A DNA stretch of 64,000 nucleotides, taken from positions 131,468 through 195,467 of the forward strand of contig CATOTD010000002.1 of the NCBI GenBank assembly GCA_951812995.1, given 5' to 3'. Origin of the DNA: an uncultured Gammaproteobacteria bacterium (GTDB taxonomy: Bacteria > Pseudomonadota > Gammaproteobacteria > Eutrophobiales > Eutrophobiaceae). Under the pieces are notes generated by a model, which made no database searches, was not told the DNA's origin, and was given only the letters and a program-made list of their open reading frames with translations. Below are positions 30,380-58,514 of this stretch, one piece after another. Both the position numbers and the translations under genes were made by a program. How positions within the stretch are numbered: the first letter of the stretch is position 1; each line of letters begins with the position of its first letter.

Positions 30380-30410
30380 TGCTCGTGCATAAACCAAAGG
30401 TATATTACTA

Positions 30411-31118
30411 GTGACACCAGTAAACACAACGCTGGAGAGTAAACTTCTCGATCAGTTAAAATATTCCCTGATTGTATCGTGCCAACCTGTAGATAACGGA
30501 CCTATGGATAAAGTGGATCATATAGTCGCGATGGCACTAGCCGCTCTCGATGGTGCTGCCGCAGGACTACGTATCGAAGGTGTTGACAATGTCCGTGCCG
30601 TAGCCGCTACAACTGATACTCCGATAATTGGCATCGTGAAACGTGACTTGCCGGATAGCCCTGTGCGTATTACCCCATTTGTCGAAGACGTGGTTCTGCT
30701 TGCCGAAGCTGGTGCGAGTATTATTGCCTTTGATGCTACTGACCGTGTTCGTCCCACCTCCTGCGAAGAATTACTGAACGCCGTGCACACCAAAGGCTGT
30801 GTTGCCATGGTGGACTGCTCAAACTATTCTGAAGGGGTTGCCATGGCCGATATGGGCTGCACTTTCATTGGTAGCACCTTATCCGGATATGTGAATCCAG
30901 ATAACACACCGCTTACTCCCGATCTGCAGTTGGTGGAACAATGGGTTGCACTGGGCTACAACGTTATCGCAGAGGGACGATATAACTCTCCAGAGCGAGC
31001 GAGTCAGGCCATCAGTGCTGGAGCATGGGCGGTGACCGTTGGCTCGGCTATAACACGCATTGAACATATCACTAGTTGGTTTGTAGCCGACATTAACAAT
31101 ACAGCGGCGAAAGTCTAA
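30411..31118 (+). CDS. nanE: N-acetylmannosamine-6-phosphate 2-epimerase
   Basis: A 235-residue TIM-barrel enzyme turning ManNAc-6-phosphate into GlcNAc-6-phosphate. Family stretches are [73 protein letters not shown] and [11 protein letters not shown]. The start is GTG at 30411, 31 bp after the transporter stop. nanK follows after 10 bp, so the genes form one operon. Confidence 0.93.
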
Positions 31119-31128
31119 AGATTTCGAC

Positions 31129-32848: not shown

Positions 32849-32864
32849 CTTAGGAGACTCTTAA

Positions 32865-33671
32865 ATGGAAGTCGTCATTGTTAAAAACCCAGACGATGTT
32901 GCCGTCCATGCGGCGAAACGCATTGTTGAATTTATGATTAAAAAACCTGATGTGGTACTTGGGTTGGCGACAGGTAACACCCCTATTGCACTCTATGAAC
33001 GGCTGGTTGCGATTTACAACGAAGGCAAGTTGAGTTTTCAGGACGCAACAACTTTTAATCTTGATGAATATATCGGAATTGAACCATCAAATCCTCAGAG
33101 CTACCGAAGCTTCATGAACACACATTTGTTTGAGAAAGTAGACATAGCCCAAAGCCGCACTCATGTACCCGAATGTCCTCCAGGCGAAAACCCCCGTGTC
33201 ATCGGAGACGCATATGAACAAAAAATTACTGCCGTCGGCGGTATCGATTTACAGATTCTCGGCATCGGCAGCAATGGTCATATCGGCTTCAACGAACCTT
33301 ATTCAAGCCTTGCCTCAAGAACTAGGGTCAAAACCCTGACGCAACAAACAGTTGCAGATAACAACCGATTATTCGCTAGCGGAGAATTCCAACCTCAGCT
33401 CGCCATCACCATGGGTATCGCAACAATTCTAGAGGCGAGGCATATCCTGTTACTCGCCACTGGAAAACAAAAGGCATCCTGCATTCGTAAAGCGATCGAA
33501 GGCCCAGTTTCCGCAATGTGTCCAGCATCGGCATTACAAATGCATAGATACACCACTGTTATTCTCGATGAGGATGCAGCTAGCGAGTTGAAGGAGTCAG
33601 ATTACTATCGCTGGGTAAATTTAAAACACGAGTCACTGGTCGATGAATACGGGTATTTTCATAATGATTAA
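32865..33671 (+). CDS. nagB: Glucosamine-6-phosphate deaminase
   Basis: 268 residues: LGLATGNTPIALYERL, FNLDEYIGI (catalytic Asp), QSYRSFMNTHLF, LGIGSNGHIGFNEP (catalytic His and Glu), RVKTLTQQTVADNNRLF, and TMGIATILEARHILLLATG. Converts GlcN-6-phosphate into fructose-6-phosphate and ammonium, completing amino-sugar breakdown. It follows the PIG-L gene by 16 bp and ends the operon; IS-B copy 2 lies about 130 bp downstream. Confidence 0.95.
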   Translation: MEVVIVKNPDDVAVHAAKRIVEFMIKKPDVVLGLATGNTPIALYERLVAIYNEGKLSFQDATTFNLDEYIGIEPSNPQSYRSFMNTHLFEKVDIAQSRTHVPECPPGENPRVIGDAYEQKITAVGGIDLQILGIGSNGHIGFNEPYSSLASRTRVKTLTQQTVADNNRLFASGEFQPQLAITMGIATILEARHILLLATGKQKASCIRKAIEGPVSAMCPASALQMHRYTTVILDEDAASELKESDYYRWVNLKHESLVDEYGYFHND

Positions 33672-41018: not shown

Positions 41019-43483
41019 ATGAATATCGAGCTTAGGTATAACGAGCGGTCGTGGGCCATTGATCTAATTGGCCATATCAAATCTGTGGTATCCGCACAGA
41101 ATCGTGCCATCAAAGATGCTGGTGGTGAACAAACAATCATAACAGACGGGGGGAGTTTATTCCCGGATGTGTTGCTGTTTGGAGACCGTTCCCTTGCCCT
41201 TATCTTGCAAGGGTGGGAATTGAAAATGCCAGATACGAGCATTGACGACCACGAGTTCCAACACAACGCGACACAGAAGGCAATCGCCTTGGGGCTGGAT
41301 AGCTTTGTTTTGTGGAATGTTTCTTATGCTCACTTGTATATTAAACAAGGTGATAAATACACCTGCCGGAAAAAATGGGATACTCTTGCTCATATCAAGA
41401 GCCGCAATAGTGTTTCCAGCAACAGAGCGCAATGGGGAGCCCTTGCCACAGAAATCATCAATTATGTGAATGACCTATTCGACCGAAAGTCATTGGAAGG
41501 TAGGCAGTTCGTTGAAGCCTACAAAAGCGGCGGCATTACTTCTCTTATCATGGAAAACACGGACGATGTAGCCAATGCATTGGAAGCAGAGGCTCGGCGG
41601 AATTCCAATCTAGGGGCAGAAATAACACTGTGGTGGAAGCGGCATAAATCCGAATACGGCGGCGGCGATGACCTATATAAAAAACTAGCACAGTCCAATA
41701 TTGCCAACTGGATTGGCAAATTCTTGTTCGCACATATCCTGCAAGGACGGGATAGCCGAGCGCAGGCCGTCACCCAGATAGGGGACATCACTACGCCGCT
41801 TGAGGCGCTGAAGATATTCGAACGCCTGTCACAGGATTGCAATTTCTGGACGATCTTTTTTGGCAATATCGATCTTGTTGTCATGCCGGAACAAGCATGG
41901 AAACAGATGCGGCAACTGAACAAGCTGCTTACGGACCTAAGAATTGGCGCAATTGAGCAAAGCCAGTTTTCCAGGATTCTTGAGGCCACGGTTGAAGTAG
42001 CGGTTCGCAAGTTGCGTGGACAATACCCAACCCCGCCAACTCTGGCAAACCTTCTGGTACAGCTATGCGTGGATAACATTGAAGATGACAGGGTGCTTGA
42101 CCCGTGTTGCGGTAGCGGGACTATTCCGCGCGCCGCACTGGAGCAGAAATTAGCCGCTGGCGTTGCTTCGGAACAAGCATCATCATCCGTATTTGCAGGA
42201 GATGAAGACTCACAGGCTATTCAGATTGCCGCCTTTGCAATGACAAAGCCAGACCTGATGAACATCCCCTTGCGTCTGTTTCGGCGGGATGCTTTTTCCC
42301 TCAAGCCTGATACCACATTAGAGTTTAGCGATCCTAGCACTGGGCAACCGTTCACCGAGCAGGCCGGGCAATTCAATGCTATCACCAGCAATCTTCCCTT
42401 TGTTGCACAGGAGGGACGCACCCAATACGGTAACGCTATTACACAGGTCACAGCATCTTTTGGGGCAGGTACTGGCAGGTTGCCGCAAACTGCTGATGTT
42501 GCGGCTTACTTGCCATTTGCATTGCGTTCGCTTTTGGTTGAAGGGGGAAAACTGGGAGTTATCATAACAAATTCGTGGCTTTCGACTACGTGGGGTGAAG
42601 CGTTCTTTGATCTCTTGGGGCGTTATTATCATTTGCGATTTGTTATCACATCTGACGCAGGCCGCTGGTTTCAAAACAGCACCGTTGTGACGAATATTCT
42701 TGTTATGGAGAAGAAGAACAACTTGGACGAAGCGGATAAGCTGATTAATTTTGTGGTTCTTACCCGCCCGTTGGAAGAATTGTCTGATATTGCAGACATC
42801 AACCTAACTGCCTCACAAATCCGGCTTGCAAATCAGCATGATGATACGATGACCATTCGCAGCGTGGCGCGAGACAGCATCCAACAGTTCCGGTCCTACG
42901 GATTAGGTGGCAATGCTCAGTTTGTGGATTGCAATTGGGTGCTAGACTTTCCCCTTGTGCCGGTTAAGTCACTGTTCCAAATCCGGCGTGGTGCGCGCAG
43001 AGGGTGGGACAGATTGTTCTATCCAGAAGCAGGTCACGACATCGAGGTAGCCTACATCCGCCCTGTTCTGAAAAACCCAAAAGAAATAAGTCGCTACACA
43101 ACCACCACAGGTAGCGATGCTTTTAGTTGTTCCCTTAAGCATTGCGGAACTGGAACAGGCTGGTCATACTGGTGCGTTAAACTGGATACGCACGTTTTGA
43201 AAATGCCACAAACGAAACAGGCACCACCCTCACCCAAACATTGGCCCGCAGGGGACTACATTGGTATGAGATGGGAACGGACGCGCTTGCCGATCTGGTC
43301 ATGCCACTGAATTTCGGTAACAGGCTGTTTGTGTCTCGTATGGTGCCCGCCGCCTTTGCTAATCAACGTCTCATTTGTTTCAATGCCAAGGATGGAGTTG
43401 ATCTTGATCTGTGCCATGCCTTACTGAACTGTGCCATTAGTCTGTTTATGATTGAAGGGATGGGCTTTGGGCGTGGACAAGGG
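41019..43483 (+). pseudogene. Large N6-adenine methylase with N-terminal nuclease-like domain, frameshifted and truncated
   Basis: The main frame runs 41019-43310. Near the start FPDVLLFGDRSLALILQGWE-LKMPDT has the PD ... ExK pattern of a restriction nuclease. Methylase motif I is VLDPCCGSGTIPRAAL and motif IV ITSNLPFV (NLPF instead of NPPF). A one-base shift near 43130 changes frame; the neighbouring frame continues IAELEQAGHTGALNWI ... LARRGLHWYEMGTDALADL up to 43483, where an IS256 end begins. The layout, nuclease-methylase-target recognition in one chain, is that of type IIG enzymes. Damage makes activity unlikely. Confidence 0.7.
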
Positions 43484-43694
43484 AGCTATTGTCAAAAGTA
43501 GTGTCTGACAATTTGATCATGCGGCGGCCTTGTCGTCCTCAGTGACCTCGATTCCATCTTTAAGCTTCACGCCTTTAATCACCTTTGCCAGGTGTCTGAA
43601 GCCTCTCAATTTGCGCCAGGAATCTTCGGCACATAATCCCATCTTGCAGATCATCGTCAGCATCGTAATCCGCGTGACACAACCTTTGGCCTGA
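43483..43694 (-). mobile_element. IS256-type end remnant (inverted copy of 45330-45537)
   Basis: The sequence from GAGCTATTGTCAAAAG onward is, over about 210 bp, the near-exact reverse of the right end of the IS at 44153-45537, including the C-terminal transposase residues KGVKLKDGIEVTEDDK. It cuts the methylase gene. The following bases up to about 43860 form an open minus-strand frame of unknown origin. Confidence 0.75.
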
Positions 43695-43896: not shown

Positions 43897-44051
43897 ATGA
43901 TCACACAAAAGCAATTTGCTAAAACAGTTAAGAAAATAGCATCCTACAAACCTAAAAAGGCTTATCGAATGCCAAACAACCCCCACTGAAAAAAGAGCTA
44001 GAGCGGAGGTTTAAGCTAATAAACGGTAAAGTTATTGAAAATACAGATTAA
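43897..44051 (+). pseudogene. Small passenger ORF at the transposon's right end, frameshifted
   Basis: ATG 43897 reads MITQKQFAKTVKKIASYKPK and stops at 43989. With one more C in the CCCC run at 43981-43984 it would continue PPLKKELERRFKLINGKVIE to 44051. Basic, about 51 residues, no family recognised. It ends 12 bp before the terminal repeat. Confidence 0.4.
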
Positions 44052-44063
44052 ATCATATCTTGT

Positions 44064-44083
44064 GGCATTAAGTATATAATTCC
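44064..44083 (-). repeat. IS1595-type terminal inverted repeat abutting the GT42 array
   Basis: GGCATTAAGTATATAATTCC matches the right end of the element at 227-1685 (GGAGTCAAGTATATAATTCC) in 17 of 20 bases. GT42 array sequence begins within a few bases after it, with the start codon of the first gene lost. Confidence 0.65.
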
Positions 44084-44152
44084 TCAAAAACCAAACAACA
44101 AATAAGGACTCTATTTTAATCGTCGGCAATGGCCCGTCTGCGGCTGATCCAA

Positions 44153-45537
44153 GAGTTATAACCGAACCTGGTGTCTGAAGAGGTTGAAGTATGCGGCGTG
44201 CCTTGCTGGAATTGGTTTTGTCTAGCAATCGAAAGTAACAAGAGGAGCACGCCACACATGACAAAAGATACTGTGATTAATCTGGGTACACCAGAGGATA
44301 TTGACCCGTTGACTGAATTGCTACGTAGCGGTGCCAAACAGCTGATAACAGAAGCGATTCAGGCGGAGTTGGCCGAGTTGATGGCAAGTTTTGATAATCA
44401 GAAAACGAGTGAAGGCAGACAGCGTGTTGTGCGCAATGGCTATCACCCAGAACGAGAAGTATTGACCGGTGTTGGCAAAGTACCAGTGTCGGTGCCAAAG
44501 ATCCGTAGCCGAGAAGGCGAGCCTGAGAGCTTCCAATCGTTAATAGTGCCTCCTTACATCCGGCGCACAGCGACCCTGGACGCGGCGATTCCCTGGCTTT
44601 ATTTGCAGGGTGTTTCGAGTGGTCAGATGCAGAGCGCCCTGGAAGTGATTGTCGGGCCTGATGCCAAGGGCTTATCCGCCAATGCAGTTGGTCGCCTGAA
44701 ACGTCAGTGGGAATCAGAGTACAAAACCTGGAGTACACGTTCAGTGACTGACGAATGGGTCTATATCTGGGCTGATGGCATCTACAGTGGTCTTCGAGGT
44801 GACGATGGTTGATTGTGTTGTCTGGTCATCATTGGCGTGAACAGCCGCGGTCAGAAGCACTTCCTGGCAATTAAGGATGGTGTCAGGGAATCGAAGCAGA
44901 GCTGGTGAGAAGTCTTGTTGTCGTTGAAACAGCGAGGTTTAAACCAACCACCGAAGCTGGCGATTGGCGACGGTGCTCTGGGATTCTGGGTAGCATTGGA
45001 AGAAGTCTATCCTGAGACAACAGCACAACGCTACTGGATGCATAAGACCGGTAATGTACTGAACTATCTGCCGAAGTCTGTCCAGGAGAAAGCGAAACAA
45101 GGGCTACATGACATTTGGATGGCAGAGGGGCGCACTGATGCAGAGAAGGCATTTGATGCATTTGAGGAACGTTTTGGGGCGAAGTATCCGAAGGCAGTGG
45201 CCATGCTTATCGAAAGACCGTGATGCGTTGCTGGCATTTTATGACTTTCCAGCAGAGCACTGGACCCACATCAGGACAACGAATGTCACCCCGTCGAGTT
45301 TTGCGACAATCCGGCATAGAACACGCCAGGCCAAAGGTTGTGTCACACGAATAACGATGCTGACGATGATCTACAAGATGGGATTATGCGCAGAAGATTC
45401 CTGGCGCAAACTGAGGAGCTTCAGACACCTGGCGAAGGTGATTGAAGGCGTGAAGCTTAAAGATGGAATCGAGGTAACTGAGGACGACAAGGTAGCCGCA
45501 TGATCAACTTGTCAGACACTACTTTTGACAATAGCTC
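44153..45537 (+). mobile_element. IS256-family element inserted in GT42 gene 1, 9-bp target duplication
   Basis: 1385 bp. Left end GAGTTATAACCGAACC..., right end complement GAGCTATTGTCAAAAG...; both share GTGTCTGA and ATGCGGC further in. CTGATCCAA occurs at 44144-44152 and 45538-45546, a perfect 9-bp duplication as IS256 elements make. Confidence 0.88.
44258..45503 (+). pseudogene. IS256-family transposase with two in-frame TGA codons and a frameshift
   Basis: ATG 44258 (GAGGAG upstream) starts MTKDTVINLGTPEDIDPLTE. SEGRQRVVRNGYHPEREVLT, VPKIRSREGEPESFQSLIVP and WVYIWADGIY follow, then TGA at 44810, LCCLVIIGVNSRGQKHFLAI, a second TGA near 44908, LSLKQRGLNQPPKLAIGDGA, and a frame change at about 45215 into DRDALLAFYDFPAEHWTHIR and VTRITMLTMIYKMGLCAEDS. 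Both TGA codons can be explained as CGA-to-TGA transitions. Confidence 0.8.
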
Positions 45538-46606
45538 CTGATCCAAAGGCCGCTTACCTCAAAGATGCCAACACAAAAGTCTTTCGCCTCAACTGGTTTT
45601 TCTTGGAATCCAATCTGGTTTTTGGTAAACAAGTCGATTGGTGTATGTTTAATTATAGAGAAGTCATTTTATTTCACTTATTACGCCAGGTTATTGAAGG
45701 CAGGTATTATGAGTTTAACCAGCTACATTTTAGTCCAGATAAACCTAAAACAATAACAGAATATACGCAATTTTACCGAGAGTACTTTGGTGATGATTAT
45801 TTCCAGTCGCTTTATAAACGGCAACGCTTTAACTGGCCCACGCCAGCAACGATAGGCAATCTGGTCACTGATTATAACCGTCGCCTCGGAATTAAAAGCA
45901 TTAGGAAAACAACAATGCCAACCGCCGCAGTTATGACTCTTGCTAAAGTAGCCGATGCCGGATTTAAGGATATCCGATTGGCTGGGGTTGATTTTTATAT
46001 GGATAGTACCCTCTATGGATACCACCCGCTCCCTAAACACCTTGCTCATTATAGAAGAAGCGACTTTAAAGTTGAACAGATTAATAAAGTTCGCAAACTA
46101 CTCGGGAAGCCTTTACTAAAAGAAGACTATTGGCGGCCACAAACCACAAGTTCAAGATACTCCATCCATACAGTTGATATAGATACAGCAATCATTAATC
46201 ATGTGCTGTCCAGTTATCCCGATATACAACTGACAGTATTTTGTACCGACCCAGCACTTGCTGTATGGCAGCAGGTAAAAGGTATTAAACTGCTAGCGGG
46301 GGGTGATATACAAGATACAGCCCCAGCACCAGATAATCGTTTTATCCCATTGTTGGATACGATTAAACTCAATCGCACGCAACAGAGAAAGGTTGTTATT
46401 TTGATGTGGAAACTTCGGTTAATAGATGCCAGCATAAAATTTATCAGAAACCATTGCCCACATCTACACCGGTTCATTCGTCCGCTATACCGTTTTATCC
46501 GAGATAGGACATGGATAGGCCGATGAGCGTGACAGGCACTGTTCCTTCGCTAGTGATATTGTAACAATCCATCGCCGCTCGCTCATTGACACAATAGGAG
46601 TACGCT

Positions 46607-46666
46607 TTGAACACCGTCATCACGCAGGGTGTTACTCAATCCCGTTTATTTGTTATATTACCCTGA
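46607..46666 (+). promoter_or_regulatory. Leader ORF overlapping each GT42 start codon (translational coupling candidate)
   Basis: In the spacer before every intact gene a frame begins at TTG, preceded 6 bases earlier by GGAG, and reads 19 codons (MNTVITQGVTQSRLFVILP if TTG initiates) to a TGA whose A is the A of the gene's ATG (CCCTGATGG). The ATG itself has no Shine-Dalgarno sequence. The same ORF starts at 47805, 48997, 50194, 51395, 52587, 53779, 54971 and 56159; before genes 5 and 10 the ribosome site is GGCG. An AT-rich TTATATT 7 bases before the ATG could alternatively be a -10 box for leaderless transcription. Confidence 0.5.
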
Positions 46667-47730
46667 TGGAAAAAAACCAAACAACAAACAAGGACTCTAT
46701 TTTAATCGTCGGCAATGGCCCGTCTGCAGCTGATCCAAAGGCCGCTTACCTCAAAGATGCCAACACAAAAGTCTTTCGCCTCAACTGGTTTTTCTTGGAA
46801 CCCACCATCAACTTTGGCCGACAAGTGGATTGGCATATGCCCAGTTTCAGTGAACTTATTTTAATACATGTACTACGCCATGTCATTGCAGGCGAACACT
46901 ATGACATTAAACAACTCATTTACCGTGAAAATTTATCAACAGAGTACTATATGCAGAAGTATCGCCGCTACTTCGGGGATGACTTTGTGCAACAACTGTA
47001 TGAAAAACATGGTCGCCACATGTTTGCTGTGTCAGAACCCCCGACGGGATTACAGGCAATGTTCAATAAACACCAGAAAAACGCTACTTATCCGACTGCT
47101 GCTGTCCTTGCATTCACGCAAGCGGTCGCAATGGGGTTTAGAGACATACGCATAGTCGGGCTGGAGTTTTATCGCGGCGACAGCATGTATGGCTTACATG
47201 ATCTGCCAGCACACTTGCACAACTTTTGCTACGCACCATTCAAGAGACAGGTACTCAATAAAATACGCAAGTTATCGGGTCAGCCTTTATTGTCAGACAG
47301 GCTTCATATACCACTGGATAAGGGTCAGCCATATCAAAAAACAGACCGCATGGTTATATCAATTCACAGCATTCAAACCGATATAGACATCATCCAGGCC
47401 GTACTGGATGCTTATCCAGACATTGAACTGACAGTATTTTGTACCGACCCAGCACTTGCTGTATGGCAGCAGGTAAAAGGTATTAAACTGCTAGCGGGGG
47501 GTGATATACAAGATACAGCCCCAGCACCAGATAATCGTTTTATCCCATTGTTGGATACGATTAAACTCAATCGCGCGCAACAGAGAAAAATTGTTATTTT
47601 GATGTGGGAATTCCTGTTAAAAGATGTCATCGTAAATTTTATCAAGCCTCATTTCCCAAATCTATACTGTTTCCTTCGTCCGCTATACCGTTTTATCCGA
47701 GATAGGACATGGATAGGCCGATGGGTGTGA
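46666..47730 (+). CDS. GT42 sialyltransferase-like protein 2 (type B)
   Basis: 354 residues. By eye it aligns with Campylobacter Cst-II over most of its length: donor loop ILIVGNGPS (Asn17, like N9), VFRLNWFF (Asn40, like N31), TAAVLAFTQAVAMGFRDIRI, GLEFYRGDSMYGL (Tyr169 and Tyr175, same spacing as Y156/Y162) and SIHSIQTDIDII (His234, like H188). GT42 enzymes transfer sialic acid from CMP-sialic acid to a surface glycan at the inner membrane face. The C-terminal tail is basic and amphipathic (EFLLKDVIVNFIKPH, then RFIRDRTWIGRWV), suiting membrane association. Type B middle; GLE instead of GLD is unique to this copy. First intact gene of the array. Confidence 0.85.
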   Translation: MEKNQTTNKDSILIVGNGPSAADPKAAYLKDANTKVFRLNWFFLEPTINFGRQVDWHMPSFSELILIHVLRHVIAGEHYDIKQLIYRENLSTEYYMQKYRRYFGDDFVQQLYEKHGRHMFAVSEPPTGLQAMFNKHQKNATYPTAAVLAFTQAVAMGFRDIRIVGLEFYRGDSMYGLHDLPAHLHNFCYAPFKRQVLNKIRKLSGQPLLSDRLHIPLDKGQPYQKTDRMVISIHSIQTDIDIIQAVLDAYPDIELTVFCTDPALAVWQQVKGIKLLAGGDIQDTAPAPDNRFIPLLDTIKLNRAQQRKIVILMWEFLLKDVIVNFIKPHFPNLYCFLRPLYRFIRDRTWIGRWV

Positions 47731-47863
47731 CGGGCACCGTTCCTTCGCTAGTGATATTGCAACAATCCATCGCCGCTCGCTCATTGACACAATAGGAGTA
47801 CGCTTTGAACACCGTCATCACGCAGGGTGTTACTCAATCCCGTTTATTTGTTATATTACCCTG

Positions 47864-48916
47864 ATGGAAAAAAACCAAACAACAAACAAGGACTCTATTT
47901 TAATCGTCGGCAGTGGCCCGTCTGCGGCTGATCCAAAGGCCGCTTACCTTAAAGATGTCAACACAAAAGTCTTTCGCATGAGTTGGTTTTTCTTGGAATC
48001 CAATCTGGTTTTTGGTAAACAAGTCGATTGGTTTTGGTTTAATTGTGGAGAGGTAATTTTATTTCACTTATTACGCCAGGTTATTGAAGGCAGGTATTAT
48101 GAATTTAACCAGCTACATTTTAGTCCAGATAAACCTAAAACAATAACAGAATATACGCAATTTTACCGAGAGTACTTTGGTGATGATTATTTCCAGTCGC
48201 TTTATAAACGGCAACGCTTTAACTGGCCCACGCCAGCAACGATAGGCAATCTGGTCACTGATTATAACCGTCGCCTCGGAATTAAAAGCATTAGGAAAAC
48301 AACAATGCCAACCGCCGCAGTTATGACTCTTGTTAAAGTAGCCGATGCCGGATTTAAGGATATCCGATTGGCTGGGGTTGATTTTTATATGGATAGTACC
48401 CTCTATGGATACCACCCGCTCCCTAAACACCTTGCTCATTATAGAAGAAGCGACTTTAAAGTTGAACAGATTAATAAAGTTCGCAAACTACTCGGGAAGC
48501 CTTTACTAAAAGAAGACTATTGGCGGCCACAAACCACAAGTTCAAGATACTCCATCCATACAGTTGATATAGATACAGCAATCATTAATCATGTGCTGTC
48601 CAGTTATCCCGATATACAACTGACAGTATTTTGTACCGACCCAGCACTTGCTGTATGGCAGCAGGTAAAAGGTATTAAACTGCTAGCGGGGGGTGATATA
48701 CAAGATACAGCCCCAGCACCAGATAATCGTTTTATCCCATTGTTGGATACGATTAAACTCAATCGCACGCAACAGAGAAAGGTTGTTATTTTGATGTGGA
48801 AACTTCGGTTAATAGATGCCAGCATAAAATTTATCAGAAACCATTGCCCACATCTACACCGGTTCATTCGTCCGCTATACCGTTTTATCCGAGATAGGAC
48901 ATGGATAGGCCGATGA
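47864..48916 (+). CDS. GT42 sialyltransferase-like protein 3 (type A)
   Basis: 350 residues, type A middle (ESNLVFGKQVDW, FSPDKPKTITEYTQFYREYF, GVDFYMDSTLYGY with Tyr175/Tyr181, SIHTVDIDTA with His232). Both donor-loop Asn are Ser here: GSGPS at 16-20 and VFRMSWFF at 36-43. If these positions are as important as N9 and N31 in Cst-II, this copy may use another donor or be inactive. The tail is KLRLIDASIKFIRNHCPHLH, and the protein lacks the final Trp-Val of other copies. The encoded protein is identical to gene 8. Confidence 0.83.
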   Translation: MEKNQTTNKDSILIVGSGPSAADPKAAYLKDVNTKVFRMSWFFLESNLVFGKQVDWFWFNCGEVILFHLLRQVIEGRYYEFNQLHFSPDKPKTITEYTQFYREYFGDDYFQSLYKRQRFNWPTPATIGNLVTDYNRRLGIKSIRKTTMPTAAVMTLVKVADAGFKDIRLAGVDFYMDSTLYGYHPLPKHLAHYRRSDFKVEQINKVRKLLGKPLLKEDYWRPQTTSSRYSIHTVDIDTAIINHVLSSYPDIQLTVFCTDPALAVWQQVKGIKLLAGGDIQDTAPAPDNRFIPLLDTIKLNRTQQRKVVILMWKLRLIDASIKFIRNHCPHLHRFIRPLYRFIRDRTWIGR

Positions 48917-49055
48917 GCGTGACAGGCACTGTTCCTTCGCTAGTGATATTGTAACAATCCATCGCCGCTCGCTCATTGACACAATAGGAGTACGCTTTGA
49001 ACACCGTCATCACGCAGGGTGTTACTCAATCCCGTTTATTTGTTATATTACCCTG

Positions 49056-50120
49056 ATGGAAAAAAACCAAACAACAAACAAGGACTCTATTTTAATCGTC
49101 GGCAATGGCCCGTCTGCGGCTGATCCAAAGGCCGCTTACCTCAAAGATGCCAACACAAAAGTCTTTCGCATCAACTGGTTTTTCTTGGAACCCACCATCA
49201 ACTTTGGCCGACAAGTGGATTGGCATATGCCCAGTTTCAAGGAACTTACTTTAATACATGTACTACGCCATGTCATTGCAGGCGAACACTATGACATTAA
49301 ACAACTCATTTACCGTGAAAGTTTATCAACAAAGCACTATATGCGGAGGTATCGTCGCTACTTCGGGGATGATTTTGTGCAACAACTGTATGAAAAACAT
49401 GGTCGCCACATGTTTGCTGTGTCAGAACTCCCGACGGGAGTACAGGCAATGCTCAATAAACACCAGAAAAACGATACTTATCCGACTGCTGCTGTCCTTG
49501 CATTCACGCAAGCGGCCGCAATGGGGTTTAGAGACATACGCATAGTCGGGCTGGATTTTTATCGCAACGACAGCATGTATGGCTTACATGATCTGCCAGC
49601 ATACTTGCACAACTTTTGCTACGGACCATTCAAGAGACAGGTGTTCAATAAAATACGTAGGTTATCGGGTCAGTCTTTATTGTCAGACGGGTTTCATATA
49701 CCACTGGATAAGGGTCAGGCACATCAAAAAACAGACCGCATGGTTATATCAACTCACAGTATTCAAACCGATATAGACATCATCCAGGCCGTACTGGATG
49801 CTTATCCAGATATTGAACTGACCGTATTTTGTACCGAGCCAGTACTTGCTGTATGGCAGCAGGTAAAAGGTATTAAACTGTTGACGACTGGTGATATACA
49901 AGACACAGCCCCAGCACCAGATAATCGTTTTATCCCATTGTTGGATACGATTAAACTCAATCGTGCACAACAGATAAAGGTTGTTATTTGGATGTGGCAT
50001 GGGTTACTCAGCTGGGATGTCGCAATATTTATCAGAAACCATTTCCCAAATCTATACCGCATCCTTCGTCCGCTATGGCGTTTTATCCGAGATAGGACAT
50101 GGATAGGCCGATGGGTGTGA
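49056..50120 (+). CDS. GT42 sialyltransferase-like protein 4 (type B)
   Basis: 354 residues, type B. Donor loop GNGPS and VFRINWFF; GLDFYRNDSMYGL keeps the Tyr pair; STHSIQTDIDII keeps the His. It differs from gene 2 in scattered residues of the middle (MPSFKELTLIHVL, KHYMRRYRRYF, SDGFHIPLDKGQAHQ), in LLTTGDIQ for LLAGGDIQ, and in its tail (HGLLSWDVAIFIRNHFPNLY). The LLTTGD variant is shared with gene 5 only, a sign of gene conversion between neighbours. Confidence 0.85.
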   Translation: MEKNQTTNKDSILIVGNGPSAADPKAAYLKDANTKVFRINWFFLEPTINFGRQVDWHMPSFKELTLIHVLRHVIAGEHYDIKQLIYRESLSTKHYMRRYRRYFGDDFVQQLYEKHGRHMFAVSELPTGVQAMLNKHQKNDTYPTAAVLAFTQAAAMGFRDIRIVGLDFYRNDSMYGLHDLPAYLHNFCYGPFKRQVFNKIRRLSGQSLLSDGFHIPLDKGQAHQKTDRMVISTHSIQTDIDIIQAVLDAYPDIELTVFCTEPVLAVWQQVKGIKLLTTGDIQDTAPAPDNRFIPLLDTIKLNRAQQIKVVIWMWHGLLSWDVAIFIRNHFPNLYRILRPLWRFIRDRTWIGRWV

Positions 50121-50252
50121 CAGGCACTGTTCTTCGCTAGTGATATTACAACAATCCATCGCCCCTCGCTCATTGACACAATAGGCGTAGGCTTTGAACA
50201 CCGTCATCACGCAGGGTGTTACTCAATCCCGTTTATTTGTTATATTACCCTG

Positions 50253-51320
50253 ATGGAAAAAAACCAAACAACAAACAAGGACTCTATTTTAATCGTCGGC
50301 AATGGCCCGTCTGCGGCTGATCCAAAGGCCGCTTACCTTAAAGATGCCAACACAAAAGTCTTTCGCATCAACTGGTTTTTCTTGGAACCCACCATCAACT
50401 TTGGCCGACAAGTGGATTGGTATGCGCCCATTTTAAGTAACCCTGTTTTAATACATGTACTCCGTCATGTCATGGTAGGCGAACACTATGACATTAAACA
50501 ACTCATTATCGGTCGTGAAGGCCCAGTACAAGTAGCACACTATCTACAGAAGTATCGTCGCTACTTCGGGGATGACTTTGTGCAACAACTACATGAAAAA
50601 CATGGTCGCAACTTGTTTGCTGTGTCAGAACTCCCGATGGGAGTACAGGCAATATTCGACAAATACCAGAAAAACTTTATGTTGACTGCTACTGTCCTCG
50701 CATTCACGCAAGCGGCCGCAATGGGATTTAGAGACATACGCATAGTCGGGCTGGATTTTTATCGCGGCGACAGCATGTATGGCTTACACGATCTGCCAGC
50801 ACACTTGCACGACTTTTGCTACGCACCATTCAAGAGACAGGTGTTCAATAAAATACGCAGGTTATTGGGTCAGCCTTTATTGTCAGACGGGACTCAGGTA
50901 CCACTGGATAAGGGTCAGCCACATCAAAAAACAGACCGCATGGTTACATCAACTCACAGTATTCAAACCGATATAGACATCATCCAGGCCGTACTGGATG
51001 CTTATCCAGACATTGAACTGACCGTATTTTGTACCGAGCCAGTACTTGCTGTATGGCAGCAGGTAAAAGGTATTAAACTGTTGACGACTGGTGATATACA
51101 AGACACAGCCCCAGCACCAGATAATCGTTTTATCCCATTATTGGATACGATTAAACTCAATCGCGCGCAACAGAGAAAGGTTGTTATTTGGATGTGGGAA
51201 TTCCTGTTAAAAGATGTCATCGTAAATTTTATCAAGCCTCATTTCCCAAATCTATACTGTTTCCTTCGTCCGCTATACCGTTTTATCCGAGATAGGACAT
51301 GGATAGGCCGATGGGTGTGA
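50253..51320 (+). CDS. GT42 sialyltransferase-like protein 5 (type B, most divergent N-terminal middle)
   Basis: 355 residues. The segment after QVDW is unlike other type B copies (YAPILSNPVLIHVLRHVMVG, then KQLIIGREGPVQVAHYLQKY), and NFMLTATVLAF replaces TYPTAAVLAF. Catalytic features are kept: GNGPS, VFRINWFF, GLDFYRGDSMYGL, STHSIQTD. From LLTTGD it matches gene 4, while its tail (EFLLKDVIVNFIKPHFPNLY) matches gene 2. It is thus a three-way mosaic. Confidence 0.85.
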   Translation: MEKNQTTNKDSILIVGNGPSAADPKAAYLKDANTKVFRINWFFLEPTINFGRQVDWYAPILSNPVLIHVLRHVMVGEHYDIKQLIIGREGPVQVAHYLQKYRRYFGDDFVQQLHEKHGRNLFAVSELPMGVQAIFDKYQKNFMLTATVLAFTQAAAMGFRDIRIVGLDFYRGDSMYGLHDLPAHLHDFCYAPFKRQVFNKIRRLLGQPLLSDGTQVPLDKGQPHQKTDRMVTSTHSIQTDIDIIQAVLDAYPDIELTVFCTEPVLAVWQQVKGIKLLTTGDIQDTAPAPDNRFIPLLDTIKLNRAQQRKVVIWMWEFLLKDVIVNFIKPHFPNLYCFLRPLYRFIRDRTWIGRWV

Positions 51321-51453
51321 CGGGCACCGTTCCTTCGCTAGTGATATTGCAACAATCCATCGCCGCTCGCTCATTGACACAATAGGAGTACGCTTTGAAC
51401 ACCGTCATCACGCAGGGTGTTACTCAATCCCGTTTATTTGTTATATTACCCTG

Positions 51454-52512
51454 ATGGAAAAAAACCAAACAACAAACAAGGACTCTATTTTAATCGTCGG
51501 CAGTGGCCCGTCTGCGGCTGATCCAAAGGCCGCTTACCTCAAAGATGCCAACACAAAAGTCTTTCGCCTCAACTGGTTTTTCTTGGAATCCAATCTGGTT
51601 TTTGGTAAACAAGTCGATTGGTGTATGTTTAATTATAGAGAAGTCATTTTATTTCACTTATTACGCCAGGTTATTGAAGGCAGGTATTATGAGTTTAACC
51701 AGCTACATTTTAGTCCAGATGAACCTAAAATAATAACAGAATATACGCAATTTTACCGAGAGTACTTTGGTGATGATTATTTCCAGTCGCTTTATAAACG
51801 GCAACGCTTTAACTGGCCCACGCCAGCAACGATAGGCAATCTGGTCACTGATTATAACCGTCGCCTCGGAATTAAAAGCATTAGGAAAACAACAGTGCCA
51901 ACCACCGCAGTTATGACTCTTGTTAAAGTAGCCGATGCCGGATTTAAGGATATCCGATTGGCTGGGGTTGATTTTTATATGGATAGTACCCTCTATGGAT
52001 ACCACCCGCTCCCTAAACACCTTGCTCATTATAGAAGAAGCGCCATTAAAATTGAACAGCTTAATAAAGTTCACAAACTACTCGGGAAGCCTTTACTAAA
52101 AGAAGACTATTGGCGGCCACAAACCACAAGTTCAATACAATCTCGCCATGCAGTTGATCTAGATACAGCAATCATTAATCATGTGCTGTCCAGTTATCCC
52201 GATATACAACTGACAGTATTTTGTACCGACCCAGCACTTGCTGTATGGCAGCAGGTAAAAGGTATTAAACTGCTAGCGGCGGGTGATATACAAGACACAG
52301 CACCAGCACCAGATAATCGTTTTATCCCATTGTTGGATACGATTAAACTCAATCGTGCACAACAGAGAAAAATTGTTATTTTGATGCGGCATTTACTACT
52401 CAGGGTGGACACCCTAATATTTATCAGAACTCATTTCCCAAATCTATACCCCATCCTTCGTCCGCTATACCGTTTTATCCGAGATAGGACATGGATAGGC
52501 CGATGGGTGTGA
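51454..52512 (+). CDS. GT42 sialyltransferase-like protein 6 (type A)
   Basis: 352 residues, type A. Donor loop is GSGPS (Asn to Ser) but VFRLN keeps Asn40. The segment from YRRSAIKIEQLNKVHKLL to SIQSRHAVDLDTA differs from genes 3 and 8, with the catalytic His in the context RHAVDLD. Tail: HLLLRVDTLIFIRTHFPNLY. Private changes relative to gene 7 are DEPKIITEY and TTVPTTAVMTLVKV. Confidence 0.83.
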   Translation: MEKNQTTNKDSILIVGSGPSAADPKAAYLKDANTKVFRLNWFFLESNLVFGKQVDWCMFNYREVILFHLLRQVIEGRYYEFNQLHFSPDEPKIITEYTQFYREYFGDDYFQSLYKRQRFNWPTPATIGNLVTDYNRRLGIKSIRKTTVPTTAVMTLVKVADAGFKDIRLAGVDFYMDSTLYGYHPLPKHLAHYRRSAIKIEQLNKVHKLLGKPLLKEDYWRPQTTSSIQSRHAVDLDTAIINHVLSSYPDIQLTVFCTDPALAVWQQVKGIKLLAAGDIQDTAPAPDNRFIPLLDTIKLNRAQQRKIVILMRHLLLRVDTLIFIRTHFPNLYPILRPLYRFIRDRTWIGRWV

Positions 52513-52645
52513 CGGGCACCGTTCCTTCGCTAGTGATATTGCAACAATCCATCGCCGCTCGCTCATTGACACAATAGGAGTACGCTTTGAACACCGTCAT
52601 CACGCAGGGTGTTACTCAATCCCGTTTATTTGTTATATTACCCTG

Positions 52646-53704
52646 ATGGAAAAAAACCAAACAACAAACAAGGACTCTATTTTAATCGTCGGCAGTGGCC
52701 CGTCTGCGGCTGATCCAAAGGCCGCTTACCTCAAAGATGCCAACACAAAAGTCTTTCGCCTCAACTGGTTTTTCTTGGAATCCAATCTGGTTTTTGGTAA
52801 ACAAGTCGATTGGTGTATGTTTAATTATAGAGAAGTCATTTTATTTCACTTATTACGCCAGGTTATTGAAGGCAGGTATTATGAGTTTAACCAGCTACAT
52901 TTTAGTCCAGATAAACCTAAAACAATAACAGAATATACGCAATTTTACCGAGAGTACTTTGGTGATGATTATTTCCAGTCGCTTTATAAACGGCAACGCT
53001 TTAACTGGCCCACGCCAGCAACGATAGGCAATCTGGTCACTGATTATAACCGTCGCCTCGGAATTAAAAGCATTAGGAAAACAACAATGCCAACCGCCGC
53101 AGTTATGACTCTTGCTAAAGTAGCCGATGCCGGATTTAAGGATATCCGATTGGCTGGGGTTGATTTTTATATGGATAGTACCCTCTATGGATACCACCCG
53201 CTCCCTAAACACCTTGCTCATTATAGAAGAAGCGCCATTAAAATTGAACAGCTTAATAAAGTTCACAAACTACTCGGGAAGCCTTTACTAAAAGAAGACT
53301 ATTGGCGGCCACAAACCACAAGTTCAATACAATCTCGCCATGCAGTTGATCTAGATACAGCAATCATTAATCATGTGCTGTCCAGTTATCCCGATATACA
53401 ACTGACAGTATTTTGTACCGACCCAGCACTTGCTGTATGGCAGCAGGTAAAAGGTATTAAACTGCTAGCGGCGGGTGATATACAAGACACAGCACCAGCA
53501 CCAGATAATCGTTTTATCCCATTGTTGGATACGATTAAACTCAATCGTGCACAACAGAGAAAAATTGTTATTTTGATGCGGCATTTACTACTCAGGGTGG
53601 ACACCCTAATATTTATCAGAACTCATTTCCCAAATCTATACCCCATCCTTCGTCCGCTATACCGTTTTATCCGAGATAGGACATGGATAGGCCGATGGGT
53701 GTGA
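52646..53704 (+). CDS. GT42 sialyltransferase-like protein 7 (type A)
   Basis: 352 residues, differing from gene 6 in only a handful of positions (DKPKTITEY, TTMPTAAVMTLAKV). Same GSGPS loop, VFRLN, GVDFYMDSTLYGY, RHAVDLD and HLLLRVD tail. The near-identity of adjacent units 6 and 7, spacers included, fits a recent tandem duplication by unequal crossing-over. Confidence 0.83.
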   Translation: MEKNQTTNKDSILIVGSGPSAADPKAAYLKDANTKVFRLNWFFLESNLVFGKQVDWCMFNYREVILFHLLRQVIEGRYYEFNQLHFSPDKPKTITEYTQFYREYFGDDYFQSLYKRQRFNWPTPATIGNLVTDYNRRLGIKSIRKTTMPTAAVMTLAKVADAGFKDIRLAGVDFYMDSTLYGYHPLPKHLAHYRRSAIKIEQLNKVHKLLGKPLLKEDYWRPQTTSSIQSRHAVDLDTAIINHVLSSYPDIQLTVFCTDPALAVWQQVKGIKLLAAGDIQDTAPAPDNRFIPLLDTIKLNRAQQRKIVILMRHLLLRVDTLIFIRTHFPNLYPILRPLYRFIRDRTWIGRWV

Positions 53705-53837
53705 CGGGCACCGTTCCTTCGCTAGTGATATTGCAACAATCCATCGCCGCTCGCTCATTGACACAATAGGAGTACGCTTTGAACACCGTCATCACGCAGG
53801 GTGTTACTCAATCCCGTTTATTTGTTATATTACCCTG

Positions 53838-54890
53838 ATGGAAAAAAACCAAACAACAAACAAGGACTCTATTTTAATCGTCGGCAGTGGCCCGTCTGCG
53901 GCTGATCCAAAGGCCGCTTACCTTAAAGATGTCAACACAAAAGTCTTTCGCATGAGTTGGTTTTTCTTGGAATCCAATCTGGTTTTTGGTAAACAAGTCG
54001 ATTGGTTTTGGTTTAATTGTGGAGAGGTAATTTTATTTCACTTATTACGCCAGGTTATTGAAGGCAGGTATTATGAATTTAACCAGCTACATTTTAGTCC
54101 AGATAAACCTAAAACAATAACAGAATATACGCAATTTTACCGAGAGTACTTTGGTGATGATTATTTCCAGTCGCTTTATAAACGGCAACGCTTTAACTGG
54201 CCCACGCCAGCAACGATAGGCAATCTGGTCACTGATTATAACCGTCGCCTCGGAATTAAAAGCATTAGGAAAACAACAATGCCAACCGCCGCAGTTATGA
54301 CTCTTGTTAAAGTAGCCGATGCCGGATTTAAGGATATCCGATTGGCTGGGGTTGATTTTTATATGGATAGTACCCTCTATGGATACCACCCGCTCCCTAA
54401 ACACCTTGCTCATTATAGAAGAAGCGACTTTAAAGTTGAACAGATTAATAAAGTTCGCAAACTACTCGGGAAGCCTTTACTAAAAGAAGACTATTGGCGG
54501 CCACAAACCACAAGTTCAAGATACTCCATCCATACAGTTGATATAGATACAGCAATCATTAATCATGTGCTGTCCAGTTATCCCGATATACAACTGACAG
54601 TATTTTGTACCGACCCAGCACTTGCTGTATGGCAGCAGGTAAAAGGTATTAAACTGCTAGCGGGGGGTGATATACAAGATACAGCCCCAGCACCAGATAA
54701 TCGTTTTATCCCATTGTTGGATACGATTAAACTCAATCGCACGCAACAGAGAAAGGTTGTTATTTTGATGTGGAAACTTCGGTTAATAGATGCCAGCATA
54801 AAATTTATCAGAAACCATTGCCCACATCTACACCGGTTCATTCGTCCGCTATACCGTTTTATCCGAGATAGGACATGGATAGGCCGATGA
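53838..54890 (+). CDS. GT42 sialyltransferase-like protein 8 (type A)
   Basis: 350 residues, the same protein as gene 3, including the double Ser change (GSGPS, VFRMS) and the KLRLIDAS tail; the flanking spacer also agrees with that after gene 3. Genes 3 and 8 are separated by four other copies, so this is either a duplicated block or a gene-conversion tract of at least 1 kb. If the double Ser form were simply dead, keeping two unmutated copies would be surprising. Confidence 0.83.
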   Translation: MEKNQTTNKDSILIVGSGPSAADPKAAYLKDVNTKVFRMSWFFLESNLVFGKQVDWFWFNCGEVILFHLLRQVIEGRYYEFNQLHFSPDKPKTITEYTQFYREYFGDDYFQSLYKRQRFNWPTPATIGNLVTDYNRRLGIKSIRKTTMPTAAVMTLVKVADAGFKDIRLAGVDFYMDSTLYGYHPLPKHLAHYRRSDFKVEQINKVRKLLGKPLLKEDYWRPQTTSSRYSIHTVDIDTAIINHVLSSYPDIQLTVFCTDPALAVWQQVKGIKLLAGGDIQDTAPAPDNRFIPLLDTIKLNRTQQRKVVILMWKLRLIDASIKFIRNHCPHLHRFIRPLYRFIRDRTWIGR

Positions 54891-55029
54891 GCGTGACAGG
54901 CACTGTTCCTTCGCTAGTGATATTGTAACAATCCATCGCCGCTCGCTCATTGACACAATAGGAGTACGCTTTGAACACCGTCATCACGCAGGGTGTTACT
55001 CAATCCCGTTTATTTGTTATATTACCCTG

Positions 55030-56085
55030 ATGGAAAAAAACCAAACAACAAACAAGGACTCTATTTTAATCGTCGGCAATGGCCCGTCTGCGGCTGATCC
55101 AAAGGCCGCTTACCTCAAAGATGCCAACACAAAAGTCTTTCGCCTCAACTGGTTTTTCTTGGAACCCACCATCAACTTTGGCCGACAAGTGGATTGGTAT
55201 ACGCCCAGTTTCAGTGAACTTATTTTAATACATGTACTACGCCATGTCATTGCAGGCGAACACTATGACATTAAACAACTCATTTACCGTGAAAGTTTAT
55301 CAACAAAGCACTATATGCGGAGGTATCGTCGCTACTTCGGGGATGATTTTGTGCAACAACTGTATGAAAAACATGGTCGCAACATGTTTGCTGTGTCAGA
55401 ACTCCCGACGGGAGTACAGGCAATATTCAATCAACAAAATAAAAATCCAATTACTGGTGTCCTCGCATTCACGCAAGCGGCCGCAATGGGGTTTAGAGAC
55501 ATACGCATAGTCGGGATGGATTTTTATCACAACGACAGCAGGTATGGGTTACATGATCTGCCAGCACACTTGCACGACTTTCGCTACAGACTGCTCAGGA
55601 AACAGGTACTCAATAAAATACGTAGGTTATCGGGTCAGTCTTTATTGTCAGACAGGACTGATATATCACTGTATAAGGGTCAGCCATATCAAAAAACAGA
55701 CCGTGTGCTTACATCAACTCACAGTATTCAAACCGATATAGACATCATCCAGGCCGTACTGGATGCTTATCCAGATATTGAACTGACCGTATTTTGTACC
55801 GAGCCAGCACTTGCTATATGGCAGCAGGTAAAAGGTATTAAACTGCTAGCGGCGGGTGATATACAAGACACAGCACCAGCACCAGATAATCGTTTTATCC
55901 CATTGTTGGATACGATTAAACTCAATCGTGCACAACAGAGAAAGGTTGTTATTTGGGTGTGGTATGGACTACTCAGGTTGGACACCCGGATATTTATCAG
56001 AAACCATTGCCCACATCTACACCGGTTCATTCGTCCGCTATGGCGTTTTATCCGAGATAGGACATGGATAGGCCGATGGGTGTGA
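55030..56085 (+). CDS. GT42 sialyltransferase-like protein 9 (type B with type A tail)
   Basis: 351 residues, type B middle with a shortened loop (FNQQNKNPITGVLAF in place of FNKHQKNATYPTAAVLAF) and GMDFYHNDSRYGL, where both Tyr remain. STHSIQTD carries the His. The tail YGLLRLDTRIFIRNHCPHLH joins a private part to the NHCPHLHRFIRPL sequence of type A genes 1, 3 and 8, ending PLWRFIRDRTWIGRWV. It is the clearest A/B recombinant. Confidence 0.85.
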   Translation: MEKNQTTNKDSILIVGNGPSAADPKAAYLKDANTKVFRLNWFFLEPTINFGRQVDWYTPSFSELILIHVLRHVIAGEHYDIKQLIYRESLSTKHYMRRYRRYFGDDFVQQLYEKHGRNMFAVSELPTGVQAIFNQQNKNPITGVLAFTQAAAMGFRDIRIVGMDFYHNDSRYGLHDLPAHLHDFRYRLLRKQVLNKIRRLSGQSLLSDRTDISLYKGQPYQKTDRVLTSTHSIQTDIDIIQAVLDAYPDIELTVFCTEPALAIWQQVKGIKLLAAGDIQDTAPAPDNRFIPLLDTIKLNRAQQRKVVIWVWYGLLRLDTRIFIRNHCPHLHRFIRPLWRFIRDRTWIGRWV

Positions 56086-56217
56086 CAGGCACTGTTCTTC
56101 GCTAGTGATATTGCAACAATCCATCGCCGCTCGCTCATTGACACAATAGGCGTAGGCTTTGAACACCGTCATCACGCAGGGTATTACTCAATCCCTTTTA
56201 TTTGTTATATTACCCTG

Positions 56218-57336
56218 ATGGAAAAAAACCAAACAACAAACAAGGACTCTATTTTAATCGTCGGCAATGGCCCGTCTGCGGCTGATCCAAAGGCCGCTTA
56301 CCTTAAAGATGCCAACACAAAAGTCTTTCGCCTCAACTGGTTTTTCTTGGAACCCACCATCAACTTTGGCCGACAAGTGGATTGGCATATGCTCTGTTTC
56401 TATGAAGCTGTTTTAATATATTTACTGCGTCATGTCATTGCAGGCGAACACTATGACATTAAACAACTCATTGCCCATGAAAATCCACTACAAGCAGAAT
56501 ACTATATACAGCAGTATCGTCGCTACTTCGGGGATGACTTTGTGCAACAACTGTATGAAAAACATGGTCGCAACTTGCTTGCTGTGTCAGAACTCCCGAC
56601 GGGAGTACAGGCAATGTTCAATAAACACCAGAAAAACGCTACTTATCCGACTGCTGCTGTCCTTGCATTCACGCAAGCGGCCGCAATGGGGTTTAGAGAC
56701 ATACGCATAGTCGGGCTGGATTTTTATCGCGGCGACAGCATGTATGGCTTACATGATCTGCCAGCACACTTGCACAACTTTTGCTACGCACCATTCAAGA
56801 GACAGGTACTCAATAAAATACGCAAGTTATCGGGTCAGCCTTTATTGTCAGACAGGCTTCATATACCACTGGATAAGGGTCAGCCATATCAAAAAACAGA
56901 CCGCATGGTTATATCAATTCACAGCATTCAAACCGATATAGACATCATCCAGGCCGTACTGGATGCTTATCCAGACATTGAACTGACGGTATTTTGTACC
57001 GAGCCAGCACTTGCTGTATGGCAGCAGGTAAAAGGTATTAAACTGCTAGCGGCGGGTGATATACAAGATACAGCCCCAGCACCAGATAATCGTTTTATCC
57101 CATTGTTGGATACGATTAAACTCAATCGCGCGCAACAGAGAAAGGTTGTTATTTGGATGTGGAAACTCTGGTTAATGAATACCAGATCAAAGCTTCTTAT
57201 GTATATAAAAAAGAAACATCCAAATCTATACCGCATCCTGCGTCCGATATACCTGTTCCTGCGTACGCTATGGCGTTTTATCCGAGATAGGACATGGATG
57301 GGCCGATGGGTGTGGCAGGCACTGTTCCTTCGCTAG
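56218..57336 (+). CDS. GT42 sialyltransferase-like protein 10 (type B, extended tail)
   Basis: 372 residues, the longest copy. The N-terminal middle is private (MLCFYEAVLIYLLRHVIAG, AHENPLQAEYYIQQYRRYF); from HQKNATYP to the His region it is nearly gene 2. The tail is lengthened by an extra basic-hydrophobic repeat (MYIKKKHPNLYRILRPIYLF-LRTLWRFIRDRTWMGRW) and the stop found in other copies is passed (TGG for TGA), adding QALFLR. Last gene of the array; the following spacer breaks off after about 72 bp. Confidence 0.85.
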   Translation: MEKNQTTNKDSILIVGNGPSAADPKAAYLKDANTKVFRLNWFFLEPTINFGRQVDWHMLCFYEAVLIYLLRHVIAGEHYDIKQLIAHENPLQAEYYIQQYRRYFGDDFVQQLYEKHGRNLLAVSELPTGVQAMFNKHQKNATYPTAAVLAFTQAAAMGFRDIRIVGLDFYRGDSMYGLHDLPAHLHNFCYAPFKRQVLNKIRKLSGQPLLSDRLHIPLDKGQPYQKTDRMVISIHSIQTDIDIIQAVLDAYPDIELTVFCTEPALAVWQQVKGIKLLAAGDIQDTAPAPDNRFIPLLDTIKLNRAQQRKVVIWMWKLWLMNTRSKLLMYIKKKHPNLYRILRPIYLFLRTLWRFIRDRTWMGRWVWQALFLR

Positions 57337-57485
57337 TGATATTGCAACAATCCGTCTCAGCTCGCTCATTGACACAATGGGAGTACGCTTTGAACACCGT
57401 CATCACTCGGTTTCTGGAAAATCTGGCAATGACTTAGGCCTTGCCATGTGCTTGCCGCATTGATGACTCAAGACTGGCGTACCGC

Positions 57486-58514
57486 TCACGTGATGCAATG
57501 CCACTTGGTCGGGAAACGGTCTAGATACCGTCTCAAGCCACGCCCGTCCCTCAGTGCAAACAGCAGATGTTTTTTGATCCGCCGTTTCAAGCCACGCCCG
57601 ACCCTCCGTCCAAACACATGTTTATTGCCCCGTTGACTAACTGGAACCTTGAACTCGTATTGGGATGGCACCACAAACACCCGATCGGGGAAATAACCCG
57701 GCAAGAATCCGCGATACTCTGCAATCAACGCTTGGCTATGTCAAAAATACAGCGGGCTGTTTGCGGAAAATTCCCAGGGCCTTGGTTTCGCCGTGAAGTG
57801 CAAAACTTCTGGATCGGCGTATTTTCTAAGAAACGGATACAAGTCGATGCCATGCCAGTTCCAGACCGGGCTAAGCTCGGCCCATTGATCTTGGAGGGTC
57901 AGGTTCAGCAACGACTGATCATGATAAAAAAACGGCCCCAGCATAGCGTGGGTGTGCAACATCCGCTCCAGGCACTGCTGTTCGTTGAAGGTGCGCGTGT
58001 CGATCAGCAACACGCCGGAGTTGAGATACCTGGTAGCGGTGATGCCGCGCTCGGCAAAGTCATATATCGGCTTGTCTGTTGTGCTGTGTCGCCATTGTAT
58101 GACATCACGAACAGCGGCGATGGGGTGTGGGCCTATATCAAGGCTCAGCAGACGGTCTAGCGCCCGCGACAATACCTTGGTATCCGCATCCAGATACAAG
58201 ATGCGATCATACGCCCCGCCCAGCGCACTGGCCAACCACAGCCGCATGAAGGCGACCGCGGGCAGATTCCGGTACCCGGGCGTGGTATGTTCGCTAAAGC
58301 CTTCGGGCAAGGACAATACACGCGACTCGATGCCGAGTGCTGCCAGCGGCGCGGGGATCGTCAGTGGGACATCGCTACAGATCAACACATCGAAATCACG
58401 CCCCGGATTGCATGCGATGGCCGCGTGTGCCGAGAACAGGGCAAAGGGTAGCATCGCCGCATCGGTACAGTATACCAACGCCTTGCGCAGGCTAGGACTG
58501 CAAGCGTCGTTCAT
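57486..58514 (-). pseudogene. GT8-family glycosyltransferase with an in-frame TGA
   Basis: The first part (58514-57741, 257 residues) is a GT8 retaining glycosyltransferase: ALVYCTDAAMLPFALFSAHA, FDVLICSDVP, MRLWLASALGGAYDRILYLD with DAD as the metal-binding DxD, RYLNSGVLLIDTRTF, FFYHDQSLLN and EVLHFTAKPRPWEF. TGA follows SPLYF, but the same frame continues HSQALIAEYRGFLPGYFPDR to 57486, so the complete protein was about 342 residues. The truncated product keeps all known catalytic motifs and might be active. Such enzymes add glucose or galactose to LPS cores, fitting a surface-glycan locus next to the GT42 array. GC content is above that of the array. Confidence 0.78.

Follow-up and report, generated by a model that had tools for sequence, protein, structure and literature searches.

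A tandem array of glycosyltransferase-like genes lies within a 64,000-nucleotide stretch of DNA (the window) from an uncultured Gammaproteobacteria bacterium, and its genes are mosaics of a few interchangeable parts. Our comparison of the copies strongly supports the conclusion that recombination within constant flanks swapped the middles and tails of these genes among the copies. The array is head-to-tail and in direct orientation, with units of ~1.19 kb, and it comprises ten copies, nine intact and one broken. Judged by their sequences, the genes encode diverged GT42 (CST-I/Cst-II) sialyltransferases that have kept the catalytic histidine. A preliminary description of this DNA had placed ten genes in 46666-57336. 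Nine intact genes lie there, each of 350-372 codons, all read in the same direction and with start-to-start distances of 1189-1200 bp; the remaining copy, unit 1, falls outside that interval, immediately upstream (44086-46526), where an IS256-family insertion sequence (IS) splits it.

The preliminary description had sorted the gene middles into two strongly different types, and alignment of the copies gave the same sorting, with type A in genes 1, 3, 6, 7 and 8 and type B in genes 2, 4, 5, 9 and 10. A three-segment fit to the fixed A/B differences put sharp change-points at gene nucleotides 136 (codon 46) and 761 (codon 254), with fixed difference rates of 0.4%, 46% and 0% in the three segments and a log-likelihood gain of 233. 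The 3′ switch falls exactly at the LTVFCT stretch, as had been proposed, and the 5′ switch is at codon 46 rather than near codon 35. Protein identity between the types is 91-98% over codons 1-45, 36-39% over codons 46-248 and 88-95% over codons 249-308. The constant blocks are therefore the 5′ end (nucleotides 1-135) and a core from nucleotide 761 to about 925. For the constant blocks, synonymous divergence (dS) between A and B comes to 0.067 (5′ part) and 0.197 (core), and the middle is saturated (proportion of synonymous differences, pS, 0.81). Because synonymous divergence is low in the ends and saturated in the middle, we conclude that the ends were homogenised by recombination and were not merely constrained. 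Purifying selection does not account for the constant ends, since synonymous sites and also the non-coding spacers, mostly 96-100% identical, are nearly the same.

Tests for recombination point decisively the same way. The pairwise homoplasy index (PHI) was 0.079, compared with 0.173 ± 0.003 under permutation, and none of 1000 permutations was as low; for the five B genes alone, the corresponding counts were 0/2000 over the whole unit and 4/2000 within the middle. The preliminary description had predicted incongruent histories for the segments, and in the tail (nucleotides 926-1015) the A|B split was rejected by the approximately unbiased (AU) test (p = 0.006), with genes 4, 6, 7 and 9 grouping across the two types. 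The 5′ and core segments are too conserved to inform the A|B topology test, and it is the contrast in branch lengths that carries the signal there. The particular exchanges that had been read from the letters also hold: the tails of genes 2 and 5 are 99% alike, those of genes 1, 3 and 8 are 100% alike, gene 9 joins its B middle to a stretch identical to the 1/3/8 tail, and LLTTGD occurs in genes 4 and 5 only. Exact repeats of 1498, 808 and 784 bp are shared between units. The longest (47672-49169 and 53646-55143, both on the plus strand) covers unit 3 or 8 plus parts of both neighbours, and duplication or exchange by conversion must therefore have been recent.

The assignment to GT42 draws on several comparisons. 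Against PF06002 (CST-I, GT42), type B units 2 and 10 score 29-33 bits with a cut-off of 25, and type A unit 3 scores 23.8 bits, just under it. A profile of the ten copies matches the Cst-II structures 2drj, 1ro7 and 1ro8 with E values of 7e-10 to 3e-9. Every copy has His234, which aligns to His188, the catalytic base of Cst-II (PMC4202792), and so do two outside GT42 proteins (from L046 and L012); Asp239 is likewise invariant across the copies aligned and in both outside proteins. The GNGPS motif of Cst-II is present in type B and reads GSGPS in the intact type A genes.

We next considered what kind of change has accumulated in the variable segments. The B middles carry 90 amino-acid and 18 silent changes, and the 5′ part and core together carry 8 and 12, respectively (Fisher p = 1.3e-4), a 7.5-fold enrichment of amino-acid over silent changes relative to the conserved parts that suggests positive selection. 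Codons 57-62 are among the most variable of the B middle (permutation p = 0.0009, for a block picked after the alignment had been seen), and they align with Cst-II residues 48-53. This interval includes residue 51, which sets acceptor specificity in Cst-II (PMC4202792) and whose change between Asn51 and Thr51 alters acceptor range in C. jejuni Cst-II (PMC4510130). The variable segment thus probably includes an acceptor-facing region. The idea that the exchanged regions are acceptor sites, already put forward in the preliminary description, gains from this alignment, and the placement is drawn from the alignment itself.

The nine intact units, all on the plus strand, are GT42 sialyltransferase-like genes at the following positions. 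Those with a type B middle are unit 2 (46666-47730), unit 4 (49056-50120), unit 5 (50253-51320), which has a unit-2-like tail, unit 9 (55030-56085), with the mosaic tail, and unit 10 (56218-57336), whose tail is the longest and most diverged. Type A middles are found in unit 3 (47864-48916), identical to unit 8 (53838-54890), which lies within the 1498-bp repeat common to both, and in units 6 (51454-52512) and 7 (52646-53704), whose middles are 99% identical. Unit 1, on the same strand, consists of a 5′ remnant (44086-44152) without a start codon and with the N-type GNGPS motif, the IS256-family (Mutator transposase) element (44153-45537), and a remainder (45538-46526) with a type A middle and a tail like those of genes 3 and 8. 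The remnant ends in the 9-bp target duplication CTGATCCAA, which stands on both sides of the element (44144-44152 and 45538-45546). Just upstream of unit 1, at 43482-43693, is a 212-bp inverted copy of the element's right end, 93% complementary, which is a remnant of a second insertion. No further copies of the array genes or the spacer were found elsewhere in a genome-wide search.

Nine near-identical spacers of ~130-140 bp precede units 2-10 (46527-46665, plus strand, is representative), and a truncated copy at 57337-57406 (plus strand) marks the right edge of the array. Before each of units 2-10 is a 19-codon leader open reading frame with a TTG start, the TGA of which overlaps the ATG of the gene (TGATG). 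The leader sequence is LNTVITQGVTQSRLFVILP in eight copies and carries two substitutions before unit 10. Six bases 5′ of the TTG there is an AGGAG-like sequence in seven of the nine spacers, and AGGCG occurs before units 5 and 10. Translational coupling from leader to gene would be the simplest reading of this arrangement. Predicted RNA structure in the spacers was no more stable than that of shuffled sequences (z about 0).

The genome could also supply a donor sugar. On contig C5, separate from the array contig, neuB adjoins a gene (L039:9936-11162) for a NeuA-like cytidylyltransferase fused to a KdsC/KDN-9-phosphatase-like HAD domain, and a supply of CMP-nonulosonate is accordingly plausible from these sequences. 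A cluster on contig C6 with cytidylyltransferase and epimerase genes was considered as the donor pathway and rejected: it resembles a polysaccharide locus with IS256-type transposase genes interspersed, and the sole NeuB is elsewhere. At L068:6746-16430, the cytidylyltransferase, UDP-GlcNAc 2-epimerase, NAD-epimerase and GT4 genes of a polysaccharide cluster alternate with Mutator-family transposase genes. The window itself holds a nan-type sialic acid catabolic set (27470-33671), in which one 969-aa protein fuses an N-acetylneuraminate epimerase-like (kelch) domain to a sodium:solute symporter, alongside NanE, a ROK kinase, a PIG-L deacetylase and a glucosamine-6-phosphate isomerase-like protein.

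The array is confined to this genome among those compared. It was present in 0/11 congeners, and elsewhere a GT42 match was found in 1/53 genomes of the order and 2/398 of the phylum, with one match apiece. The order's only other GT42 is part of an 866-aa frame that runs on into further sequence, near a transposase-like gene (L041:6510-9110). In another proteobacterium, a single protein (L046:460-2265, minus strand) resembles, judged by eye, a GT42 domain followed by a GT8-like one; a separate GT8 gene adjoins the array (57741-58514, minus strand). Among the congeners examined, a locus of methyltransferase and GT4/GT2 glycosyltransferase genes is bordered by a conserved ELM1 gene, with an ilvE-like aminotransferase gene beside it where the sequence extends that far. 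The array lies upstream of the ELM1/ilvE-like gene pair, in an IS-rich stretch not common with the congeners. A search of a further contig collection returned no relatives of the array genes, and phage origin was rejected because there were no matches in phage records or viral contigs. The named relatives of a neighbouring protein are from uncultured Legionellales metagenome-assembled genomes (MAGs), at 47-50% identity, so the bacterium that carries the array is probably a gammaproteobacterium close to the Legionellales. The window also encodes, at 15845-18214, a 789-aa serine/threonine protein kinase weakly similar to the Legionella effector kinase LegK1.

Based on these results, we suggest with moderate confidence that the array is a repertoire of complete GT42 enzymes that grew by unequal crossing-over, was shuffled by exchange in the constant blocks and diversifies acceptor recognition. 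Unequal crossing-over between the long direct repeats would add and remove units, and crossovers or conversion tracts that end in constant blocks would swap middles and tails. Such exchange would disturb neither the reading frame nor the leader, catalytic core or C-terminal end, and variable, probably acceptor-facing segments would move between copies. For each intact unit, translation probably proceeds through its leader, with the TTG start and the stop overlapping the ATG, and its product is predicted to act on a surface glycan, adding sialic acid or a related nonulosonic acid from its CMP-activated form. The array would then act as a standing repertoire of acceptor specificities, continually re-assorted by recombination. 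This explanation presumes that the enzymes are active and differ in acceptor, that each copy is expressed, and that change proceeds at an appreciable rate and is of benefit. A stronger version, which we regard as tentative and rather doubtful, is that the array evolved as a generator of surface-glycan diversity, with the constant flanks serving as recombination handles that shuffle the acceptor-recognition middles and C-terminal tails of the ten genes. If that were true, a bacterium of protists or animals would have a combinatorial, changeable coat of sialic-acid-type sugars, with the variation lying in enzymes and not in a surface protein.

Several observations weigh against the repertoire explanation. 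The ratio of amino-acid to silent changes in the B middles does not significantly exceed the neutral expectation (binomial p = 0.24), making relaxed constraint on these middles possible, and the permutation p value for codons 57-62 was computed on a post hoc block. AlphaFold2 models of types A and B have low confidence (pLDDT 42 and 44), too low to judge the GT-A-type fold of GT42 by, and because these models are poor the acceptor-site placement comes from sequence alignment only. Ser stands in place of Cst-II Asn9 in the intact type A genes and, in genes 3 and 8, in place of Asn31 as well; the Ser-substituted copies may be inactive or altered in donor handling. No promoter-like or terminator-like sites were found in the spacers, so we only infer the expression of single units. 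Finally, the NeuB and NeuA proteins fall below the curated equivalog cut-offs, which leaves more than one nonulosonic acid possible.

The same features can be read in other ways. Ordinary concerted evolution, in which tandem duplication by drift or for dosage is followed by homogenisation of the ends and slow, largely neutral divergence of the middles, would fit a B-middle ratio not significantly above neutral, the near-identity of the adjacent units 6 and 7 and the exact copying between units 3 and 8, as expected from unequal crossing-over, and the tolerated decay of the IS-disrupted, start-less unit 1. However, middles at 36-39% protein identity stand beside ends at 88-98%, so that homogenisation would have to halt abruptly where the variable segment begins and ends; none of the other nine frames is broken, and the 7.5-fold enrichment in the B middles is also at odds with this account, which we consider unlikely. 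An assembly artefact, with mosaics created when reads from a mixed population, or repeat copies, were joined into chimeras, might be suspected in a 17-contig genome of unstated read type, where short reads would have difficulty with repeats as long as 1498 bp. Yet an 812-kb contig encloses the array, all junctions keep the frame, unit lengths are regular, and recombination occurred at many scattered points, including inside the B middles, making this origin highly improbable.

The preliminary description had raised a possible antigenic-variation system, which goes beyond what the sequence shows. Under such a model, a bank of cassettes would recombine into one or a few expressed units and alter the sialo-glycan that the cell surface presents to a host or predator. 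Constant flanks with exchanged middles and tails, and the very recent exchanges implied by the 1498-bp repeat, are what it would predict, and in H. pylori the lipopolysaccharide (LPS) is indeed changed by rearrangement between glycosyltransferase paralogues (PMC2583950). Nevertheless, nine of the ten copies are complete, there are no silent cassettes, and no promoter-like site was found near one privileged unit. Cassettes serving a single expression site were rejected because the upstream regions of all intact units are nearly the same, each with its own leader and its own ATG. Phase variation through simple repeats was likewise rejected, as no phase-variable tract (A/T run of 8, C/G run of 7 or dinucleotide run of 5) occurs in 43901-57500. 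Furthermore, an adaptive immune system is a doubtful selecting force, given relatives among uncultured Legionellales MAGs. We therefore judge dedicated antigenic variation to be quite unlikely, slightly behind concerted evolution. The array opens two questions to direct test: does module shuffling create new acceptor specificities in one step, and do bacteria beyond the well-known mucosal pathogens diversify sialylated coats?

Among known systems, the cassette systems pilE/pilS and Borrelia vlsE (PMC11499132) resemble the array in their constant ends, variable modules, tandem copies and segmental exchange. They have one expressed gene and incomplete silent cassettes, in contrast to the array, whose copies encode enzymes and, apart from unit 1, are complete. 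The nearest precedent is the α-1,3-fucosyltransferase pair futA/futB of H. pylori (PMC2583950), in which glycosyltransferase paralogues swap segments by homologous recombination and can thereby alter LPS sugars; recombination between glycosyltransferase paralogues is thus already known from such gene pairs. Like futA/futB, the array consists of mosaic paralogues with incongruent segment histories. The pair, however, comprises two genes with poly-C phase variation and exchange demonstrated in isolates (PMC2583950), whereas the array has ten tandem units of another family, no homopolymer phase-variation tract and two middles at saturated divergence, and is known from one genome. A ten-unit tandem array with two such middles between near-identical flanks is undescribed for sialyltransferases in the literature and genomes compared. 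Its proteins share with Campylobacter jejuni Cst-I/Cst-II (PF06002) the sequence family, the GNGPS motif (GSGPS in type A), the catalytic His and the variable residue-51 region, and differ in being very diverged, in having a long C-terminal extension and in forming a mosaic tandem array, the natural chimeras of which could serve to map GT42 acceptor specificity.

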